The notes beneath the pieces are model-generated. The model was not told where the DNA came from. It saw nothing but the letters and a program-made list of their open reading frames with translations, and did no database searches. The translations under genes were made by a program, and so were the position numbers. From positions 6,138,001-6,202,000 of the forward strand of contig OZ020248.1 of the NCBI GenBank assembly GCA_963971285.1: a stretch of DNA of 64,000 nt. The letters are read 5' to 3'. This document shows positions 21,524 through 57,600 of this stretch, in pieces. Each line of letters opens with the position of its first letter. The stretch's first letter is position 1. Source of the stretch: Astropecten irregularis. Its lineage: Eukaryota > Echinodermata > Asteroidea > Paxillosida > Astropectinidae.

Positions 21524-21569
21524 ATCTGTAAAAAATGTTGGGCATTTTTTAACCAATATTTTAACCAAC

Positions 21570-22135
21570 ATTGGTCTACATATCAACTGGTAACATAATT
21601 GGTCAATAATAACCCAACTGGTGTTGGGTAGTAACTTTCCCTATTAATTGGTTAATTATCTTTGCCAACAAGTTGGGCTTTTGCTTTTACCCAACCATTG
21701 CTATTTTGCATTTGCCTCATCTGTTGGTTAATAGTTATCCCAGCAGTTGGTCAAATAAGATTGCGATTTTGTTGGTTAATCTGAATTTCCCATTAATTGG
21801 TCAAATCGTTTTGCACAATAATTGGTCACTTCATTGCAAGTAGTTGGTTATTTCTTTGTCTCCTTTGTTGGTTAACCTGAACTTCCCAGTTGGTCAAATA
21901 TTTTTGCACAATAGTTGGTCAATTTCATTCCAAGTAGTTGTTTTTTGTTTGTCTCATTGTTGGTTAATATTAACTTCCAAGTTGGTCAAATCATTTTGCA
22001 CAATAATTGGTCAATTTCAACTATCCCAGCAGTTGGTTGCTTTTTCACATGTTATTGGTTGAAATGAGCTTCACAGTTGGTCAAACTTGCAAAATAGAAG
22101 TTGTGTATTAAAACTTTCTGGTAGTTGGCTAAAAA
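21570..22135. repeat. Left subterminal repeat array (TTGGTCAA/TTGGTTAA)
   Basis: About 18 copies of TTGGTC or TTGGTT, nearly all in one orientation, plus a few reversed copies (AACCAA, CCCAAC) nearest the tip. A longer block ending GCACAATAATTGGTCA recurs near 21811, 21905 and 21996, a spacing of about 93 bp. This resembles the subterminal motif clusters bound by the TnpA protein in plant CACTA elements. Which protein binds here is unknown. Confidence 0.75.
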
Positions 22136-22286
22136 CACTTGCATCCCCTTTGGAATGATGAACCTCACTTGCAATAGTCAAATCTATAGTTTCCACACTT
22201 TGTTTCTTAGTTTGCCTATATACTGTACAAGGAAGGTAACGCAAATGAAACTGATTTCACTATAATTGTACAAGTTAACACAAAAC

Positions 22287-22292
22287 TTTATT
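22287..22292 (-). other. Candidate polyadenylation signal for the SAMD3-like gene
   Basis: AATAAA on the minus strand, about 0.9 kb past the stop codon and still inside the transposon. Weak evidence: the motif is common in AT-rich DNA. Confidence 0.25.
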
Positions 22293-22439
22293 TCAAAACT
22301 AATAAAGAACAGTACTTTTATCAACTGTATCACTCCTTCCGGTATAAGTTGAGTCAGTTGCAACTATGGCATATTACTTTTATGCAACTGATCTCAAAAC
22401 GAGACTTCTCTTTTAAAAGGGAATACAAATATATAAACC

Positions 22440-22850
22440 AAGCTACTGAGCTATACTAGACCACGACTACTGCAGTGAAGATATTGATGCATGTGATTTA
22501 CTTGATTTTTATGTAACAAAAAAACCCAAAAGAGTGGCTTCTCTCTCATAAAGGAATACAAATGAATAAATCAATCAATCCAACCATCTTTTCAGCTGCT
22601 AGATATTACACCATTAATACTATACAGTAAAGATATTGTTGCATGTGATTTACTTAATTTTATACAAAAAAAACCAAAGAGTGACTTCTCTCTCAAAAAA
22701 AAAATCAATCAATCAATCCAACCATCTTTTCAGCTGCTAGATATTACACCATGAATATTATAGTAAATATATTGTTGCATGTGATTTACTTAATTGTATA
22801 CAAAAAACAAACAAACAAACAGAGTATCTTCTCTCTCAAGGAATACAGGC
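22440..22850. repeat. Tandem repeat of about 136-152 bp in the 3' part of the transposon
   Basis: The block containing GCATGTGATTTACTTAATT, then a CTTCTCTCTC stretch, then CCAACCATCTTTTCAGCTGC recurs with anchors at 22489, 22641 and 22777. Units are AT-rich and partly degenerate. It lies downstream of the SAMD3-like stop codon and may be in the 3' untranslated region. Confidence 0.7.
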
Positions 22851-23204
22851 AATCAAACCGAATTCTCAGTTATTTGATACAGAACCCTGCAGATTCAATC
22901 TTGTTCAATGTTCAATGTGCAAAACAAACGGAAGAGTTAACTTCTCTTGCAAAAAGGAATATTATAAACAAATTTATCAAACCAAATCCTCAAAAGATTT
23001 ACCTTTTAACAGACAATGAAAAAGGTCTCTATCCAGATGTTTCTCAGTAATCCTTTGTGTGGCGTATTTTGAGTTGCATTTTTAAAATCCTATTTTTCTT
23101 CATTACATATTGCAACTCAATTTTGAGGCAAAACTAACAACAAACAACAGTTAATAATTCCTGTATTATCATGTGCTGCTGATAAACAAACTAAAACATC
23201 AAGT

Positions 23205-26200
23205 TTACTTGAGATGTTTGGTCAGATATGCCCTGAAGTCCCTCACAGTGGGAGGAATGGCTGTAGGCAGCTCGTATATAAAGACCTGTAAGAATTCCCA
23301 CACTGTTTTCACTTGGGGTTGATACATAATGTCGAGCACAAAGTGTGCCTTGAATGCAACGTCAATGGTGTTCAACAAACTTGGGTAGGACACAGCTCGT
23401 CTCTCTGCAACGAGGAAGTGCTGAGTTGGCTTTAGGCGGTCTGTAGCATACAGTGCCAGTATGAATGGCTGTGGCCTCTCAGAGCTGTCAATACTATGCA
23501 GGTAGTCTTCCACATTCGTGATGGACTGAAAAAGGAAAGGTGAAAATTAGTTTCGAAGAGAAAATGGTAAGCCATTAAAACTTAATTGATCTGAAATGGT
23601 TTAATCGGTTGAAAATGGCATTAGTGATGAAGGCAGACAATAAGATGCAATTTACTGAAACACAGCAAAATGCTACAAGCCATAATGCAGTCAATAATGC
23701 TGATTAGATTTTTGTCAAATACATAATGATAACACCACAGATGATGTACAATGCGCAAATTTCATTTAAGTAAGATGCTCAAGTTGCAAAGAGAAAATAC
23801 AAAATAGACTTGATATTATTCATCAAAGTATGAAGAGAAGTAGGATTATTCATTTGCAACTTGCAATGTCTTTCTTATGTCTTTCTTGATCATGTCAATA
23901 CTTTCTAACAATTTTGACCAAACAAAAAGAATAATTACTGGATTCAAATTCAAGTCGCATTTGAATTAAATTGACATGTAATCTTTTCAATTAAACCTGT
24001 TTGTTTTTATAAAAGTATGGACTTTGGGCTAAGATAAATCATGAACAGCTTACTGGTTTTAAGTCAATGAAAGCATCAACGCTGTCCTTGACAGTGCATC
24101 GGCCACCACCCTTCCCCTTACTTCGTCCTCCTAGAATGACCGGTAGTAGCATGAACGCCAGGTTTTTCTTCTCATCTGAAATGTAAAAAAAAGAAGGAAA
24201 CCAAAGGTAAAGACTATTCCCTGTCAACATTCTGACCATAAGTCTCATTCACCTTGTTATTAATATAGTTCTTATAGCCCTGGCCAAGACATTTGTCAAG
24301 CATACTGCACAGACAACAGGTATTATATGAATCTAAAAGGGCAATCAGCAACCTCAGGTGGCGACCATAATATGCCAATGTTGCAGTTCTCCAATTTTTT
24401 TTTTAAATGGACTGCAGCTTGATCACAAGGAGAAAATACTGCAGTTTCCGTGCGGGCCGCTACGTGAAAAACACAATCACATCGTTCCACGTTTGGTTTC
24501 AGCTCAAGTGTGCATTAACTCTATATTCAGTGAGTGGATTTTATCTGCTGATAAGCCAGAGAAACAAACCACATAGGCCTACTGTGTCTGAACATCACAT
24601 GCATGGGAACATCACATAGCCTAGCAAGTGAGGAGAAAAAGCTCCTCAACCTCTGACTTAATAGGAATAATTCAAAACCAGTAAGAATTTATAACAGTTT
24701 ACCTGTAGAGAGAGTGTCCTCTTTTACATCTTGCAGGTGAAGGGTCTGCTTCCACGTTGGGGCCATGACATTGGCATATGTTATAACTGGCTCACAAACT
24801 AACTCCCACTTGTAGGACAATTTATCTGCGATGCCTGCATGATGGATGTTAAAGTCCTGTGCGATCTGTAATAAGACAACAATTTAAGCTGTTACAAATT
24901 CATGGCAAGATCATACAAGACATGTGTAACATTTAAGGATATCTCTGTGGAATCATGCAATGTGGCAAGACCAATTAAGTGAGTTATACTTGTAGTTTAA
25001 ATCCACAATAAAGAGTCAACAGGGAATAACACACAAACAAATTTCCCCTCAAATTTGGCTCGAATGGCCTCTTTGACAAATGCAAACAAACAGTTGTGGG
25101 GGAGGAGGAAAAAAAACAAGAAAGCTGTGTTTCAATAGATCAAAATTACTTTGACGTGACCTTTCTACCTGTACACACCACAACCTCTTGAAATTAGGAA
25201 TACTTTTTACCATGTCTTTGTCCAGTAAACGTGGATACTTCTCCAGGATGTCAGCCAGTGAGTGCTTCTCGGCAATGAACTGCTTACGATGCTTTGTGGT
25301 TAATTTCATGTATTCTTTCACCTTGGTGACTGGCTCCATATTCTCCTTCATCCAAGCAACCATCTCTGCTTCGCTTTCTGGGGAGCGATCCTCTTCATCT
25401 GATGATGACTCTGTAGCAATCAAGTGTACAGAGAAATCGCAATGGCATTTATGTCCATCTTACAAGTTGGAATAAGGTTTGGAAATGAACACGGGTGCCT
25501 TAAAGCATACTTAGCTTTTGACAGTCAAGGTCACATACATAAAAAACCACATCCTTTTGATTCACGTTTTGTGTGCATTGAAACTCACAGAAAGCACCAA
25601 GTTAACACACATTCGCATTTGCCAGTGTTGTCCTACATCTAATTAAGGAAAGCAGATATTTGCCAACTAGAGCTGGGTGCCAATATAATGTATGCCAAAT
25701 AAATACCTTCAGAGGATGGTTGCTGTCTGTTGTTGCTCTTTTCATTTCTGTCAAGCATGGTCTTCCTGATATACCTGAGGCGTTCTTCTAAATATCCTGT
25801 TGCTGGCCGTCCACTAGCTCCTTTCATATACCATGCTTCCTAAACATGAAACAAGTTAATTCAAGTGCAAACAACATTTTCGTCTACTTAGACTTTCTTT
25901 TTAAAAATTGAAAAAAATTACTCTGTTGTAAGCTGAAACAAATCAAAACCCACTAAATTCGCAATTTTCATTGTTGAAAAATTGATTTAAATTTGGAATC
26001 AAGCTCACCGTGATTGCAACCCATAAGTATTTAGGGGCATTATTTCAATTTAATTAGATATACAGAAACATTTTTCTCCAAATTTTATAAAATTTTCTCT
26101 CTTGAAGAATGACAAAATTGTAAATCTAAAACAGTATACTTACAAAGCCATTTCCCTCTGGATCCTTGAGATGTGGAAACTGTGTAATGATGCTCTCGGC

Positions 26201-29200
26201 AAGTAACTGCTTCACATATGAACTTGGTCTAAGATTGTAAGATGGAAAAATCAATGTTAAAACCTTAATTATATGGCATGGAACAGAAAAACTCTGCTTA
26301 TATTAGCACCACAGATTCGGTTTTTATGTGTTGCACTGCAAAATTGACAGCTCAGTATTAGCAGAGTATTGTACCCAACAAAGTAGTCAACAAATAAGGC
26401 TGCAGGAAAAATTGATTGCATAAGCAAATCCACAGCATTTTCAGTTAGGTTGTGTGGAAACTGGATTAACTGAAAGAGAGCACTGGATTGTACTGAGAGT
26501 TTATGGTCATCATACATTTAAACATACAATCCAAATATTTCCTGAGTGTTGACATTAATTTGTACTTACTTCAAACCGTGATATTGAATAAGATGTCCAA
26601 CCAATAATGCTGTCATGGTGCACCTGTCCTTCTTTGTTAATACAGGCTGAGATTTGTTCTCTAGGCGATCAACAACACTTGCTCCTCTCAAATCTGCCTT
26701 AAGAATGGTTTTCACATGCTGTCGAAAATAACGAGAAATTTGCACTCATTTCCTTAATTATATTATCTAAGCCATTTGCCACAGATAACCTTGTACTCAC
26801 AATCTCAAAATTCTAAGGCATGTACACCTGTACGTGCATTTGTAGGCAAACCCCCAAGTATGGCACAGACTCCTGTACTGATGGTGTAAATAATGCTTTG
26901 CTATAAACAAAGATAGATGAGCTCAGATGACTAGTAAATGTTTTGATTTTTAAGATCTGAAAAAATCTTGCAGAAAGTGAAATAAAAAGGCTTACAAAGT
27001 GAGACGACAGCTTCTTCTTTTTCTGGGAAGGTTCAAAATGTGAATCAGCCTGGGACGAGTCAGAGAATGCATCAAGTGTGTCATCTGTGTCCATGCATGT
27101 ACTAGTAGAAGGGCTGCTGCTTGGGAGAGGTATGGAAGGGCCCGGTTCCTGGTGCTTCTGAAACTGAACATACACACATGTACAGTACAATTAATAATAC
27201 GTTTTATTTTTGATATTATTGAAAGGCAGACCATTTCATAAACCAATTTGTAAATTAAAGGTATGATGCAGATTTAATTCAGTCTGGAAGCTTACTGCAT
27301 GTGGTATGCAATGGTGATATCATAATCCATTATGCACATAATTATGCACAAAATAATCGAACTGCATGGTACAAAATTGCTACTTGAAGTTTTCTCCAAA
27401 ACAAACCAATCTAAATCATACCTTTAATAACATTGTCTTACCTTATATAACATTGAAACGGGTGACAATGTACAGTGAATCATCTTCGTCATCGTGGCAG
27501 CGAGTAACATGATGTGGCCGATAATCAAAAAGATCCTCTGGTTTTTTTATCATGATGCTTTCATTTGTCTCCTGCACACTGAATGCATGGTAGTGTCTAT
27601 TGAAGACAATCACATTCCATGGTTTAACTGTTAAAAATACACCACTCAGGTTCACAAGAATATGCTGAACTTCACCGAACTGTGGTCCCTCATCTGTCCA
27701 TCCTGTAAGTACCATGCTGTTTGGTCGTAGCTGGTATCCATGAAGTTCTACCATACTTGCAATTGTAATTTCTGAATCATGTGGAATCTTCAGTGTAGCA
27801 CAGATGAAATCTGCCTCTTCCAAAGAATTCACAGATACAGGAACTTGATTTTTAACATCAACTTTGTATTGAAGTACATCATCCTCATCAGAAGCCATGC
27901 AACACTGCTGCTGTTGATGCCTCATGGCTACTGTTTTGGCAATATTTCGGTAGTTATTACATGCTGTAGCCCATCTTTTAAACTGCTTATGTTTAGCTTC
28001 ATACCTCATACAAGAGAATTGATGAAGTGGACCAACTTCCCTTATTGCCCTTGGATAGTGCACCATGTGATGCTGCTTTGGAATTAGATGACGAGGTGAA
28101 TGAACTTGAAGAAAAAGCTGATGATGATCTTGAATCATGTGCTTTAGTGAGTATGTTGCTCCTCTGCTTATTGTGTCACACATCACACATTTGTAAATGT
28201 CTAGTAGTAGAAGAAAGACATCCCACACATCAGATCTCTCTGGCACTAAATCTCCAATTATCAGTGGAAGATGAAGTGCAAGACACATTGTCTGAGCCGC
28301 CTTTTGTCCACTTGGACCACCTGGATTGTTAATTGCTGATGATCGAATTGAACTTGGTTTATTTTTTTTGTCCACTCGACCATAGCTAAAAGCATTGATT
28401 CTGCCATTAACACATTCAAGTGTTAACAGTTTCTCTTGAATCAAAGCTTCGAGAGTAAGGTGGATCTCTAAAGGTAGTACACCTTCCATCAAGTCGTGCA
28501 TTACATCAGGCACAATGTTATCTGTGACATGATACCCAACTACATCGTTCAAAGCAGAACATCGCTTGATGCCGGTATTACTCACATTGTTTTGTGCAGC
28601 ATCCTTTTCATAATTGCCCCTTGTCCTGATCAACTTGGGATCTTCAACAAGTTGACATCTGGCAGTATCCCTGTGTGCTCTGCAGAATCTGCATGGATAG
28701 TTGGCAACAAAACTCCCTACATAGCCCAACATTTCGTGGAGTCCCAGGTTGTCACCAATCACTTGGTACAAGTATGGCTTTACTATTCCTGAAAACTCTC
28801 TACATGAAATTTCTATGCCATCCTTAGAAAGCCTATTCAGATCTTTCACAATGGTTGACAATATGCAGTCAATTCCATACTTGGACACAAGAGAACATTT
28901 TGCGCAGGCAACCAAAAGAATATTTCTGAGAGCTGCTTGGTTTTTTGCAGGCAAGCTAAGGATACTAGCATAAAATCCACTTAGCTTATGCACACCTCTA
29001 CGTGATCCTAGAGGATTGGCTGTTTCGAATGCATCATTGTACAGGAGAATTGGTAAAACTATGCTCCCTTCATCCTTTGCTTTAATTCGTTCTCCCACAA
29101 AATCCCCATCACGGAAAGATCTGAGAACATTCGCATCTGCTGATTTTTCTTCATTTAGAATTGAACTTAGAACCCCTGGCTGCTGAAGAAAAAACCTGAA

Positions 29201-30911
29201 ATTGTTTTCAATGGGAACATATTGGTAGGTGTCTCCTTTCTCAATTTGCATAATTTCTCCTGTGCCTGAGGCAATTTGTGAACCAAAGGTCCTCCCAACA
29301 AGCTTTTCCTCTGGGGGGATCAGAAGACCTTCCTTTTTGAAGAAGGAGTTCCGCTGGTATTGTGTCCTAAGCCCATTGAAGGATGATTTGATGGCTTGAA
29401 CTTTTTGCCTGAAGTCATCGAAACAAGCATCATTGTCTTTTACTGTTTTACTGTTTAACATGGAAGTCACACTGCTCCCAACACTGTCCAAAACCGTGAA
29501 CAGTAATTCTTCAACTTCTGAAAGAACATTTTGGATGAATGAGGATGGAACAGCAGATGACATCATTCTTCTAATGAACATTTCAATGTGTTCTCGTGGA
29601 TCTTCTTGGATCAGTCTTTCATCTAGAGGTGAATCACTGTGTTCAGACTCTTCATTCTCACCTAAAGTACTGTTCTCAAACTCTTCCTCTTCGCAGGCAA
29701 GTGCTTCATCCTTGGAGTGTAAGGTTTCTCCACAATGTGTTGAAATAAGGTGTCGTTTAAAAGAGGAGCAGTATGAAAATTTCTCCAAACATCCATTTTG
29801 ATGGCAAATAATCTTGGTTGCAGTTCCAGATGTTATATTATGGACATATTTCAGATGGCGAAATAACTGCTTAATACCTCCATTAATAGAAGAGAAACAC
29901 CTGAAACAAGTGAAACCCATTGTGACTTTGTGTTCTTTGTAAATTCAAAGACTGGCAAGCATGATGTAACTCACTTCTTTCCTCCAACCATGCAGAAATT
30001 TCAATCTGACACCAATCTTGGGTATCATCTCAGCAATTGCAGTTTCATCAAGCAGCTCCAAACATGCTGTGTCCACTCCTTGCTCTGTATAAGTACAACA
30101 TTGTAAAAACAAAGGCTAAGTTATAATCAATTGTTAACCAACATGCTGTACTTTCACGGTTTTAAAGAAAATTATCATGCAACCAAATTAGCATGAAGGG
30201 AGAAGCTTTGGCCTTTGTTTTCATTCAAAACAAAAATTACTGAATGATTCATTAGAAATTAAATGATGCATCAGACAATATTTTACGGTGGACTATAAAT
30301 ACAATAGTAGGCCCCCTACTACTAACTTAGTAACTATTAGTACTATGAAACACGTAGGCTAGACCTATGGGCTAGGCCTAGCCTAGGCTACTCCCATTAT
30401 TATATTATTAGGGCTAGCCCTAGGGCCTAGGCGTACTTAGGCTAAATGAGATTTGGCCAAAAATCAGTCAAGAGGTCTAGCCAGGGGCCGCGCCAGGGGG
30501 TCGAGTTAATGATCAATATAATTAATGATGTCTTGATAGTGCTTGCGCCGCGACCCTCTTTGCATTAGGGCTATTTGAAGGCATGCAAAGAGGGCCGCGG
30601 CGTAAGCACTGTCAAGGCATCATTATTTATCAATAGTAATAGGCCTAACGTTAGGCCTACATTAGGCTAGCTTTTTTTTGTAGTTGTACTGCCGCTCACA
30701 GCTAACGTTGGGTCGTGTGCTGTGCATGCACAGCGGACCGACAGCGTAACTTGACGGCGATTTATCCGTGTCAAAAACAAGAATTTAGATTAACCCTGGT
30801 AGTTTCTTTATGTCCTAAACTCTTCTTACCTTGGAGGTGATCGGCTAGTTCAAGCACATCCCATTTCAGAAGATAATAACGAATGTCGTCATCTTCTCCA
30901 CCGGGCGCCAT
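23205..30911 (-). CDS. SAMD3-like protein, 10 exons, SAM domain at N-terminus
   Basis: Spliced CDS of 1575 nt (524 aa), close to my recollection of vertebrate SAMD3 length (about 520 aa). Exons on the minus strand: 30911-30830, 30084-29975, 27163-26996, 26718-26570, 26228-26144, 25839-25707, 25410-25169, 24865-24703, 24175-24054, 23525-23205. All junctions are GT-AG and all phases agree. Residues 13-64 form a SAM domain (WDVLELADHLQ, then EQGVDTACLELLDE, then IPKIGVRLKFLHGW) split by a phase-1 intron. Residues 65-120 are a Ser/Asp-rich linker ending in a KKKK run, a possible nuclear signal. The rest resembles the SAMD3-like C-terminal region, including LVGHLIQYHGL, FPHLKDPEGNGFEAWY and AFKAHFVLDIMY. 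The start was chosen at MAPGGEDDD, with A at -3 and G at +4; an in-frame upstream ATG at 31013 is weaker. Family assignment rests on motif recognition. The position between the transposon tips suggests it is an element-encoded accessory protein rather than an ordinary host gene. Confidence 0.82.
27443..29920 (-). CDS. C2H2 zinc-finger DDE transposase (CACTA/CMC-like), intact
   Basis: A single uninterrupted 825-aa ORF lying entirely in intron 2 of the SAMD3-like gene. Two C2H2 fingers open it: C5-x2-C8 with H22/H27, and C39-x4-C44 with H57/H62. An acidic linker follows (about 70-110). The core resembles CACTA/CMC DDE transposases. Candidate catalytic residues are D296 in LLYNDAFETANPLGS, D390 in VIGDNLGLHEMLG and E641 in CMRYEAKHKQFK. 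A CxxC pair at C410/C413 follows D390, as in CMC-type cores, and the motif PDVMHDLMEGVLP lies at 471-483. Residues 720-800 form a C-terminal domain I do not recognise. Upstream in frame there is a TGA 27 nt before the ATG, so this ATG is the first possible start. Its role would be cutting and rejoining element ends in the nucleus. The absence of stops or frameshifts means recent activity or selection. Catalytic residue assignment is inference. Confidence 0.85.
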   Translation of the reverse strand: MGFTCFRCFSSINGGIKQLFRHLKYVHNITSGTATKIICHQNGCLEKFSYCSSFKRHLISTHCGETLHSKDEALACEEEEFENSTLGENEESEHSDSPLDERLIQEDPREHIEMFIRRMMSSAVPSSFIQNVLSEVEELLFTVLDSVGSSVTSMLNSKTVKDNDACFDDFRQKVQAIKSSFNGLRTQYQRNSFFKKEGLLIPPEEKLVGRTFGSQIASGTGEIMQIEKGDTYQYVPIENNFRFFLQQPGVLSSILNEEKSADANVLRSFRDGDFVGERIKAKDEGSIVLPILLYNDAFETANPLGSRRGVHKLSGFYASILSLPAKNQAALRNILLVACAKCSLVSKYGIDCILSTIVKDLNRLSKDGIEISCREFSGIVKPYLYQVIGDNLGLHEMLGYVGSFVANYPCRFCRAHRDTARCQLVEDPKLIRTRGNYEKDAAQNNVSNTGIKRCSALNDVVGYHVTDNIVPDVMHDLMEGVLPLEIHLTLEALIQEKLLTLECVNGRINAFSYGRVDKKNKPSSIRSSAINNPGGPSGQKAAQTMCLALHLPLIIGDLVPERSDVWDVFLLLLDIYKCVMCDTISRGATYSLKHMIQDHHQLFLQVHSPRHLIPKQHHMVHYPRAIREVGPLHQFSCMRYEAKHKQFKRWATACNNYRNIAKTVAMRHQQQQCCMASDEDDVLQYKVDVKNQVPVSVNSLEEADFICATLKIPHDSEITIASMVELHGYQLRPNSMVLTGWTDEGPQFGEVQHILVNLSGVFLTVKPWNVIVFNRHYHAFSVQETNESIMIKKPEDLFDYRPHHVTRCHDDEDDSLYIVTRFNVI
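30524..30624. repeat. Hairpin in intron 1 of the SAMD3-like gene
   Basis: Two 42-bp arms, 30524-30565 and 30583-30624, are inverted copies differing at only 4 positions, around a 17-bp loop. The arms contain CGCCGCGACCCTCTTTGCAT and its complement and are GC-rich against an AT-rich surround. This could be a small MITE inserted in the larger element or a structural element of its transcript. Confidence 0.75.
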
Positions 30912-31589
30912 GATTTTCGAGACTGACTGATTATACTGAACGTAGAAGACTGTACATGTAATGTACACGCGACGCACGTACGTACCTACTATACTGTACA
31001 CATACACCCCCACGCGCGCGTCACGTAGCCATGTGTATATATTTGTGCAAAAATGGCGCGAATGCCGCCCAGACTATGCTAATTAATTGTTAAAAAATTA
31101 CCACTTTCGCAAGGTAATACAACGTATAGTTATCCAGTAATTTGGTCAACTCGATGAATTCTTGGATGAATTCCAAGTTCAAATAATGACAACCGCGCGA
31201 TTGTATCGGTATGAAAGGGGCATGCAGGACGTGCGGAAACATGATTCACTTCAACCTAGGGCTACAGAGGTCATTAGGCCTAAACTGAACCTATAATCTG
31301 CTGAATAATTATTAACCAGGCATTAACGATATTCATCCAGTAGGGCAATGTGTGATTTTAGATGCAGTTATTGAAATGAATATGTTCTCTATCATAATAA
31401 GAAAAAAATATTAATAAAACTAACATTAGGCCAAATAAACTTTGGTTTAACGGAACTTGCAACCCGATATCTTTGCGGTTGAAAAGACCACGTTTTGTAC
31501 AAATAACTTTGCTTAACCTTTCAAACAAAATTAATGATTGCGGTGGGTGTATAATTATTTTCATTACCCAACTTGTGGATAATTTCTAT

Positions 31590-32049
31590 CACCACTGTTG
31601 GTTAATCAGCCACCCACGAGTTACATTTAGTCACAGCTATTTTTTTCTTAATGCCATTATTTTTATTTTTTACCATTTTCAGAATAAATGTTTACCATTT
31701 TCAGAATAAATTTTTACCAAACAAAATGGACTTCTCGATATTGCTCAATATAAATGGTTATTTTTATACAGCATTGGGCATCTATTTCGGGTTTACTCAA
31801 TAAATATGCTTTATGCATTTTTTATTACTCATTTCGAGTATAAAATATTAACCAACTGTATTGGTCAAACATTTTTAACCAATAAAACAACACAAAATTA
31901 CCATTATGTTGGGAGTTCGCATTGACCAATTTTTGTTCAATGTTGTTGGTCAAAATTAAACAGAAAATCCCAACATTTCTATTAATGACATACCAATTGT
32001 TGGGTAAACAAATTTACCCAACATTTTTTTGCCCAACGTTTTAACAGTG
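31590..32049. repeat. Right subterminal repeats and terminal inverted repeat
   Basis: The same motif family as the left end but sparser: GTTGGTTAAT near 31597, TTAACCAACTG near 31849, ATTGGTCAAAC at 31860, TTGACCAAT at 31922, GTTGGTCAAA near 31944, and a run of CCCAAC/TTGGG motifs up to the CAGTG tip. It lies upstream of the SAMD3-like start codon, so it would also cover the promoter side of the element. Confidence 0.65.
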
Positions 32050-32666
32050 ATACCATCTCTTCAAATCTCAGCTATTATATTGCCACAGAGTGAGAACTTT
32101 CGTCTTATTGGTTCAATTTTGCATCCGTCGTTTAAACTGTAAGGGTTTTTCTTTACCTTTGAAGTGTATAACGCCGCGTGCTAACTCCCATTCGTATAGC
32201 AGCCACATACTATTTATGGTACCGAGTGTGCATAGCTGATGGTATCGAAGCATATTTTTGTTTTTCATGAGTCCATCTGACATATTTCTGCAAACCTTAT
32301 ATTACAATTTTACACATTCTCGTTAAATTCGAGACTTTCGTCCCCCAGTCGAGATGGATGTCACCCCACTACCCCCGTACTTCTCGCCACATCATCCTTG
32401 ATCAACTTCTATCTTCTATTTTGTCTAATGAGGGCGCTTTATGGCGACCATCTTTGAGGGCGATACGCATAGCACTGAGCCTACAATGTCAAAATAATAC
32501 ATTGATGTGTAATCATTGTGTGATTGTAAAAAATATTAAATGGGGTTTTATTTAGTAAATTTATTCATTATTGCCCTAATGTTCGTAGGATTTCTATGTT
32601 ACTCGCCGACCCAAAAGATGGCGCTCGATGTAATAATGAAATCTTATAATGCGCCAACTACATCCT

Positions 32667-54600: not shown

Positions 54601-57600
54601 GAATCCTGCTCCGGTTTTGTTGTTGACTGTTCAGCGACTTAAAACTAATCCAGTCCATTTCCCTTGTGGTTATTTCACGAGTAACCCTTTCGCGTCGACT
54701 GAAAAAATAAATACTTAACAATCGCTATGCATTAATTGTGTTTATTTTTATAAGTTCTTCAACTTCTCATGCTCAAGTCAAGTCAAGGGGTCTCTCGTAG
54801 CTCAAGTTACAAAGGATAACCCATCGCACCCTTCTTAGGGCTGCAATGCATCCACAGTAAGTTACAATGAGTTTGGTGATCCCTGATCAGATTTGGACAC
54901 AGAGTACCGGTAGCTCATTAATTTCTCTTGATATTAAGTCTTCATCATCTGTCAATTGTCTTCTTTTGTTTCAGTTGAAGCTACAGGGGTCCTTCACCGG
55001 TATCCACTTCAACGATGCTACAGTGACCATAGTTAAGCAGGATGCTGAGCAGACTACCAGGCGTCATTGCCTCCAGGGTCATTGCTCCGGTCTTAGCTTT
55101 CAAGCGGATTTCCAGGTGGAAGAAAGAACGGTACCGCAGCCTTCCGACCTTCACTGGTCTTTTTTTTTGTCATTCCTAATCATACCGAATCATGCAGCCT
55201 TTTTTCATCATACCAGGACCCAAACTTGGTTAATCCAAGGATTTGAGTTATGTTTCTGCTATAGTAACAAATGTGATACGACGGCACAAAATACCATCCG
55301 CCATTACTGCGGTGTCCCCGCCCGCCTTTTGTGTGTAATATCCAAATCCATCTTGCGATTCATGTAATTGGCCCTGCGGTGTATCAGGGGACATACATCC
55401 TGCAGTACAGAGTGCGACGGTGCAGAAATTCTTTTGTTGCCATTCAGTGGGCACAAAAAGGCAGACGGGGACACCGCAGTAATGGCGGATGGTATGTCGT
55501 ACCGTCGGATCGGTCTATAGGCAACCTTTTCCATGCAATCTCCAAGAAGAAATGACATCCGTCTTTAAATTGTCATTTGAAAGGGTCTTGTCTTATGGTT
55601 TATCATATTGAAAGAGTCTTACCTTTTTGCATCGTTACAGGGATGAGATTTCTCAGATTAAAATCTGATTTCTGATTTTTTTGTTTTGGATTTCAGATTT
55701 TTTTCCTCACAGGCTGTGTACAAAAGTAAAAGAGATTTTCAGATTTCAGACTTTTTATGCTCCCTGTCAGCTGTTTTCAGACATTTTTATCATTGGTCAA
55801 TCTCATCCCTGATCGTTAAAATCTGTCTCCATCTGCATCAACTGCCATCGTTGAGCTTCCATTGAGTAAATTACAGTAATCACTTATCGATTTTCCGCCA
55901 CTTAGCATTGAATGAATGTCTCACATTATAACGTGTCTTGTTACCACTACAGCTTACTGATTCAGAGAAGAAGAAACATGGGCCCGGGAGCGAGCGAGAA
56001 ACCAAGTCCCGCATCACATCGCTGTCCGTCCGGGTTGATGACAGGTCCTGGCAGGAGCTGGAGGAGTTTATTCGAGAGGCTGAGAATCGCCGAGACTTGC
56101 AGCCGTTCCTGAGGGGCTACGGGCAGTATGCACAGAGGTTCATGGGTCGACAGAAGGCACTGGAACATTTCAAGGTACATCTACTAAGAGTTTATTTAGA
56201 GAGAAGGGGTATAGCAGCTTCGTTTTTCTATAAGCGGGAGATTTTTATGTCGCAGTCACACTACTTTAAGCCAGGCAACACTGGTGCATATTGAGCAGAT
56301 CCAGTGATGGAACCAGTGTCACAAGCTCAACTGTCTGGCGTGCCGAACTGACCGGATGACGAAACCAAACAGCTAGGCACGCAACAAACACAAGCTCAAC
56401 TGTCTGGCGTGCCGAACTGATCGGATGACGAAACCAAACAGCTAGGCATGCAACAAACACAAGCTCAACTGTCTGGCATGCCGAACTGACCGGATGACGA
56501 AACAAAACAGCTAGGCACGCAACAAACACAAGCTCAACTGTCTGGCGTGCCGAACTGACCGGATGACGAAACGAAACAGCTAGGCATGCAACAAACACAA
56601 GCTCAACTGTCTGGCATGCCGAACTGACCGGATGACGAAACCAAACAGCTAGGCACGCAACAAACACAAGCTCAACTGTCTGGCGTGCCGAACTGACCAG
56701 ATGACGAAACCAAACAGCTAGGCATGCAACAAACACAAGCTCAACTGTCTGGCATGCCGAACTGACCGGATGACGAAACAAAACAGCTAGGCATGCAACA
56801 AACACAAGCTCAACTGTCTGGCGTGCCGAACTGACCGGATGACGAAACCACCCAACCAGCTAGGCACGCAACGAAAACGAGCTCAACTGTCTGGTGTGCT
56901 GAGCTGACCGGATGACGAAACCGGCCATCTAGGCACGCAAAAGGACACGAGCTCAACTGTCTGGCGTGACAAACCATATGTACATTCCGCGGTACGCGAT
57001 ACGCGATCGGAGTGACCGGTATGGACATAAACAACTCAACACACCAATAAAATGGAGCAATTTTCGTCATGCTGTGCGCATGCATGGTGTTACATATCAG
57101 GACCTTATTGGTCCACCACATGCAGTGAAATCGCTCAGCACGTGGACAGTCTATCCCTTGACACCAGTAGAGTTGGCACTTCTCTACGTCACAAACAATC
57201 CTCAGGTCCAAAACAACCAACAGATCACAGGATGAAGTCCAGCAATTGGAGAGTAATTTTCTTTATTCAAGAAAGATACAAGCACGTGTAGTTGAGTGGA
57301 GTCCCTAGGCAACATTTTGTAAGGCCGTGTCCGAAACGAGCTTCCAGAGCTACGGCTAGGTCTATTGTCTTGGTATCTCCATGTATTTCCAGCAAAGACC
57401 TAGACCTAGCTCTAGACAACAGATTCGGATGCATCCAGAGCTACGGCTAGGTCTATTGCCTTGGTATCTGCGTGTATTTCCAATGAAGCAAAGACCTATA
57501 CTAGACCTAGCTCTAGACAATAGATTCAGATGCAGCCTATGTCTTCGAGGGCCCACACCAACACGCAGTGGAGCCTTGATGCAGTGGATTCCAGTCATGG

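Follow-up and report, generated by a model that had tools for sequence, protein, structure and literature searches.

What does it mean that an intact transposase reading frame lies wholly within an intron of a multi-exon gene and on the same strand? The question is raised by a 64,000-nucleotide stretch of the Astropecten irregularis genome (assembly GCA_963971285.1, contig OZ020248.1, positions 6,138,001 to 6,202,000; hereafter 'the window', in whose coordinates unlabelled positions are given), for which a first-pass annotation had proposed a CACTA-like element with an accessory, 'SAMD3-like' gene surrounding its transposase. That proposal is borne out by inverted tips lying outside both genes, by a second copy elsewhere in the genome, and by repeated pairing of the two genes: both belong to a single element, they are kept together in nearly all of the families sampled, and they diverge together. 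On balance, we favour the view that this is a young, potentially autonomous, two-gene DNA transposon of the CACTA superfamily, in which a TnpA-like accessory protein would assemble on arrays of sites and thereby pair the element's ends.

The accessory gene could be rebuilt on the minus strand as ten exons, with GT-AG introns throughout and one closed frame of 1533 nt, encoding 510 amino acids plus a stop. Exons 1 (30830-30911) and 2 (29975-30084) are predicted, from the gene model and a SAM profile, to carry the first and second halves of a SAM domain, and exon 3 (26996-27163) a low-complexity linker with a KKKK run; gene model and relatives together define a 'core' across exons 4 (26570-26718), 5 (26144-26228), 6 (25707-25839), 7 (25211-25410), 8 (24703-24865), 9 (24054-24175) and 10 (23205-23525), the last of these holding the C-terminal part of the core and the stop. 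Intron 2 (27164-29974) encloses an uninterrupted transposase open reading frame (ORF) of 825 amino acids (27443-29920, minus strand), with two C2H2-like fingers at its N-terminus. Both the consistent splicing and the nesting were as first described, and the accessory gene occupies the TnpA-like position, one of its introns holding the transposase frame; gene order varies among relatives. The name SAMD3 is that of the first-pass annotation and serves here as a putative label.

The tips lie outside both genes, as had been claimed. The right tip (32030-32049, minus strand), CACTGTTAAAACGTTGGGCA when read inward, begins CACTGT, and the left tip (21526-21544, plus strand), also of CACTG type, reads CTGTAAAAAATGTTGGGCA and is missing the first two bases (CA) when set against the second copy (copy 2, contig C1), where the complete left tip is CACTGTAAAAAATGTTGGGCA. 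Because copy 2 shows this complete tip, we place the element at about 21526-32049, which agrees to within a few bases with the 21524-32049 originally proposed, the window's own left tip being two bases short. The AT at 21524-21525 and at 32050-32051 would then be a 2-bp target duplication, assuming the loss of CA from the left tip; copy 2 would have a TA/TA duplication, assuming in turn that two bases have been lost from its right tip.

Comparison of near-identical copies set the boundaries in relatives, for which we use locus labels (L010 and so forth). L015, L016 and L017 have CACTCT...AGAGTG tips between TA and TA, and in L014 these tips are bordered by TG on either side; in L010, L012 and L013 a CACTCT tip is paired with a right tip that reads CACACA inward, and TA flanks both, the left flank being CTA in all three, such that a fixed base may be present there. 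CACT-type inverted tips are found, then, at the right end of the window element, the left end of copy 2, and in L010 and L012-L017. Since near-identical relatives fix these boundaries, the target duplication can be put at 2 bp in 7/7 relatives whose two ends could be compared (TA in L010, L012, L013 and L015-L017; TG in L014), and the TG of L014 shows that the two duplicated bases are not themselves fixed. This is the size seen in TRC elements and not the 3 bp of plant elements; the 3-bp duplications that the first-pass annotation had anticipated are ruled out by these seven relatives.

The genome searched comprises 475,729,200 bases in 168 contigs. Copy 2 starts at the tip, has flanks that differ from those of the window, and shows 53 mismatches in 9473 aligned positions; its transposase frame is uninterrupted from end to end, its intron 2 carries approximately 17 kb of other DNA, and its accessory gene has lost exon 4 as well as portions of exons 5 and 8. 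We also note that the intron-2 insert of copy 2 (L001:4866-7000) opens with sequence that recurs some 1.2 kb further on, and that a palindrome of about 113 bp in accessory intron 1 of the window (30518-30630) has a reverse self-match to copy 2 at 80.5%. Elsewhere in the window, an ORF at 56266-56805 (minus strand) is built from repeats of a single unit some 23 residues long and is probably a minisatellite.

Allowing up to two mismatches, the tip pattern is matched 53 times across the genome, and a reversed control 17 times. A tip variant, CACTGTAAAAAATGCTGGGCA, recurs at C1:21873593, C14:14417744, C14:19857679, C23:5274536, C24:5890433 and C28:467231, possibly from non-autonomous derivatives.

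Pairing of the two genes recurs among the relatives. Of 30 transposase loci inspected with 1.5-kb flanks, 19 have a SAM exon upstream in the same orientation (counting L019 and L030, which are a single element, separately), two (L025 and L029) are preceded by the C-terminal end of the accessory gene, and nine (L020, L021, L023, L024, L027, L028, L031, L032 and L034) showed no accessory part. When 12 loci were extended, core exons were found in order beside the transposase in 11, L020, L024 and L027 among them, and L029, extended later, brings the count to 12/13, with the proviso that L010/L012 and L015/L016 are two families each counted twice. Several of the exon models were trained on these same loci; falling outside the training are exons 4, 5 and 7 of L027, exon 8 of L025, exon 4 of L009, and all of L029. 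Eight of the nine control stretches in the first core-exon search were blank at E up to 1, and the ninth, L004, which matched, is no fair control, since it adjoins a tip match and contains a decayed copy; no core match at E up to 5 came from five stretches of the window lying beyond the element.

Searching the whole genome with the window core gave 106 matches in 62 groups, 25 of which have a transposase match no more than 25 kb away (in 23 cases on the same strand); conversely, 27 of the 56 scored transposase matches have a core group within that distance. Eight core/tip pairs have an inward-facing tip on the 3' side, where uniform placement predicts 0.045 (the pattern was itself derived from two of the eight, two share one tip, and eight tandem tip matches on C15 were cut to one, leaving 46/53 tips in use); taking all core/tip pairs (n=13), 11 are inward and 2 outward. 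Across 10 loci, transposase and accessory distances correlate (r 0.91, Mantel p 0.0001), and by count 6/7 splits are common to the trees of both genes, L025 and L027 being without some core exons in the alignment used. The accessory gene might have turned out to be single-copy, with its tips found nowhere else, or the transposase to be widespread without it; in the event, the gene is not single-copy, the tips recur, and the core sits beside the transposase in all but one of the extended loci. The last accessory exon also occurs on its own account: six times in tandem, about 680 bp apart, beside L009 (C15:8507673-8511379), as a second, partial copy in L024, and as eleven isolated last exons on C11, where the 4.5 kb read (L060) gave the last exon only.

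Turning to the transposase, 35 of the 56 scored matches are stop-free with an open frame of at least 800 codons (counted from the table), and eight near-identical pairs give a pooled ratio of non-synonymous to synonymous change (dN/dS) of approximately 0.30 (23 synonymous and 26 other changes), a figure that rests on few events with some sequences used twice, and with one pair, L027/L028, standing at 1.2. The two C2H2-like fingers are invariant in 15/15 aligned transposases, as are seven acidic residues, D271, D296, D390, D472, D476, E479 and E641, which are candidates for a DDE catalytic triad. The window transposase itself has no match to Transposase_21 or Plavaka (Pfam, E up to 0.1), and weak matches to Transposase_21 in 7/15 aligned relatives (best 3.7e-4) fall under the Pfam cut-off. 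Saying this, a relative on C9, found by the window transposase at 3.1e-58 with 27% identity, passes the Transposase_21 cut-off in its own right (31.5 vs 28.6 bits), and its homology places the window transposase, indirectly, in the Transposase_21 (CACTA/EnSpm/TRC) group. In L014-L017, and likewise in L018, the transposase frame continues without a stop from accessory exon 2, and the stretch from the exon-2 donor to the first finger contains no methionine, such that retention of intron 2 in L014-L018 would give a SAM-transposase fusion; in the window, unlike these loci, a stop lies between accessory exon 2 and the transposase frame.

Both ends of the window element carry dense arrays of TTGGTYAA sites: 15 in the left 625 bp (21526-22150; 13 on the plus strand, 2 on the minus) and 6 in the right 528 bp (31521-32048; 3 on each strand). 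In 2000 first-order Markov resamplings the mean was 0.26 (maximum 3) on the left and 0.20 (maximum 2) on the right, and elsewhere the motif occurs 3 times in the 9370 bp between the arrays and 8 times in the 53477 bp of the window that flank the element. The element therefore possesses subterminal repeat arrays, and in the three families examined the array words differ, being TGGGTA in L016 and GTAAAA in L012. Plant CACTA elements are described as having family-specific arrays bound by dissimilar TnpA-like proteins (PMC2613891). The first-pass annotation had suggested that the accessory SAM protein perhaps binds the TTGGTCAA array, or bridges the ends through SAM polymers.

What, then, is the accessory protein? 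An N-terminal profile built from five families (window included) has SAM domains as its best four matches in the PDB (ANKS6 at 3e-5, Polyhomeotic at 0.003 and BICC1 at 0.005), with designed repeat proteins lower down among the 30 matches up to E 1; SAM_1 matches three of the five members singly (best 5.8e-7), and the N-terminus of L027 is a SAM domain over the Pfam cut-off. L025 has in this position a CIDE-N domain (39.3 vs 23.5 bits, second half of the domain only), and L020 and L024 have a different segment ahead of the core, 43% identical between the two, which yielded no convincing domain or structure match. To judge from these sequences, the C-terminal core is the kept part and the N-terminus appears to have been exchanged in some families; the notion of a SAM-domain protein as accessory factor holds for the window group and L027, but the constant part is the core, and L025 has CIDE-N. 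Gene order changes as well: the transposase lies in accessory intron 2 in the window group, just after the accessory gene in L025 and L029, before the N-terminal part of that gene in L020 and L024, and before SAM exon 2 in L027, where inspection by eye of the sequence upstream of the transposase revealed no exon 1.

Two further candidates for an exchanged N-terminus were set aside. An ORF just downstream of the L034 transposase (L034:1033-1401, minus strand) passes the PB1 cut-off (27.7 vs 23.6), and stays a lead because no core was found in the L034 locus or in 5 kb beyond; a CIDE-N gene some 8 kb downstream of the C2:341752 transposase match (L062:20-1128; C2:341752-352224) has no convincing core in 5 kb. 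SAM and PB1 domains are both able to form head-to-tail assemblies. CIDE domains are reported to form head-to-tail helical filaments (PMC8647176).

That the core is kept while the front domain changes points to a partner protein that acts through self-association. Plant CACTA elements need a second protein. We propose that the accessory protein is a functional counterpart of TnpA, as distinct from a demonstrated homologue. In the model that we have in mind, a single transcription unit would yield both products, either through alternative splicing or because intron 2 is retained, as it does in maize En/Spm; the accessory core would bind element DNA, most likely the subterminal arrays, while the N-terminal domain would chain copies of the protein into an assembly that pairs the two element ends and brings in the transposase, which may then act at the CACTG tips and leave 2-bp target duplications. 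We also entertain, more tentatively and at somewhat less than even confidence, a broader proposition: that the accessory protein of one lineage of CACTA elements is modular, joining the kept core to a replaceable domain that polymerises head to tail (SAM, CIDE-N or perhaps something with a PB1-like fold), with selection keeping polymerisation and not any one domain, that transposition in this lineage runs on protein assemblies at the element ends, and that large 'SAMD3-like' families are transposon parts.

Other explanations of the locus have to be weighed against the two-gene element. A single, unremarkable host gene whose intron 2 had received a transposase would suffice for the nested layout alone, and we rejected it as scarcely credible given the tips outside both genes, the second copy, and the recurrence of the pairing; indeed, because the core adjoins the transposase in 12/13 loci and both genes co-diverge, this is not a host gene that has been hit by a transposon. 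It is also improbable, if less starkly so, that a host gene was captured once and has since been carried along as a passenger, playing no part in transposition. Genes with many introns are typical of hosts, the accessory gene of copy 2 is incomplete, and for 37 of the 62 core groups there is no transposase match closer than 25 kb, all of which would suit a passenger; however, the gene has been kept with the transposase, co-diverging with it, across families of 31-57% protein identity, and of those 37 groups four have an inward tip on the 3' side, with eleven more in a region of C11 (19.7-21.9 Mb) that holds Transposase_21 fragments (seven matches at 19.2-21.2 Mb).

A rather different possibility, unlikely in our estimation but one to be taken seriously, is that the accessory protein is the element's regulator, which might for example counter host silencing or control expression, and that the transposase fingers recognise the DNA. 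The invariance of those fingers would fit this, as would the accessory protein, in which no DNA-binding fold was recognised; set against it, though not decisively, are an N-terminus of self-assembling type, which suits an architectural role, and arrays that differ between three families, as they do in plants with dissimilar TnpA-like binders (PMC2613891). Several observations count against the assembling, end-pairing protein that we favour. The transposase's own fingers could read the arrays; the core matched no Pfam family or solved structure, nor did the C-terminal core exon by itself match a structure; and the window's own SAM part, taken alone, has no Pfam SAM match. The CIDE-N segment of L029 reaches only 16.3 bits, below the cut-off, and a genome search for CIDE-N returned 12 matches that include L025 and from which L029 is absent. 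Finally, the sole close copy of the element has its accessory gene partly deleted, L034 alone among the 13 extended loci has no detectable core, and 29/56 transposase matches are more than 25 kb from any window-type core.

The two-gene element has affinities with both plant and animal systems. CACT-type tips and family-specific subterminal arrays are shared with maize En/Spm (tnpA/tnpD) and soybean Tgmt (PMC2613891), as is a transposase frame lying in an intron of a second gene, the Spm/En tnpD transcript holding the large ORF of the intron-1 region (PMC2613891); the maize frames lie in intron 1, whereas that of Astropecten lies in intron 2, and plant CACTA elements make 3-bp duplications (PMC2613891, PMC4158355) where the Astropecten element makes 2-bp ones. 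With SmTRC1 and the animal and fungal TRC elements it shares the Transposase_21 group, direct repeats of 2 bp, and the making of alternative products in addition to the transposase (PMC1636069), although SmTRC1 tips begin CCC; the portion of PMC1636069 available to us reports products other than the transposase as not detectably conserved, and mentions no SAM domain. Plavaka (PF18759), which is CACTA-related, is matched weakly by 3/15 aligned transposases at E up to 0.1, none below 0.002, and not by that of the window. Among the open-licence papers listed, with Repbase outside the search, none was seen to link SAMD3 to transposons, by title or abstract, or a SAM domain to CACTA elements, by title.

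In contrast to TRC elements, for which the account in PMC1636069 gives no conserved partner, a conserved multi-intron partner recurs here in several families of a single genome, where it surrounds, follows or precedes the transposase and carries interchangeable N-terminal domains of kinds that self-assemble. It would be an instance of one domain replacing another within a transposon-encoded protein, and provides a testable model for the pairing of CACTA ends, as well as a possible explanation for SAM-domain gene families of unknown role.

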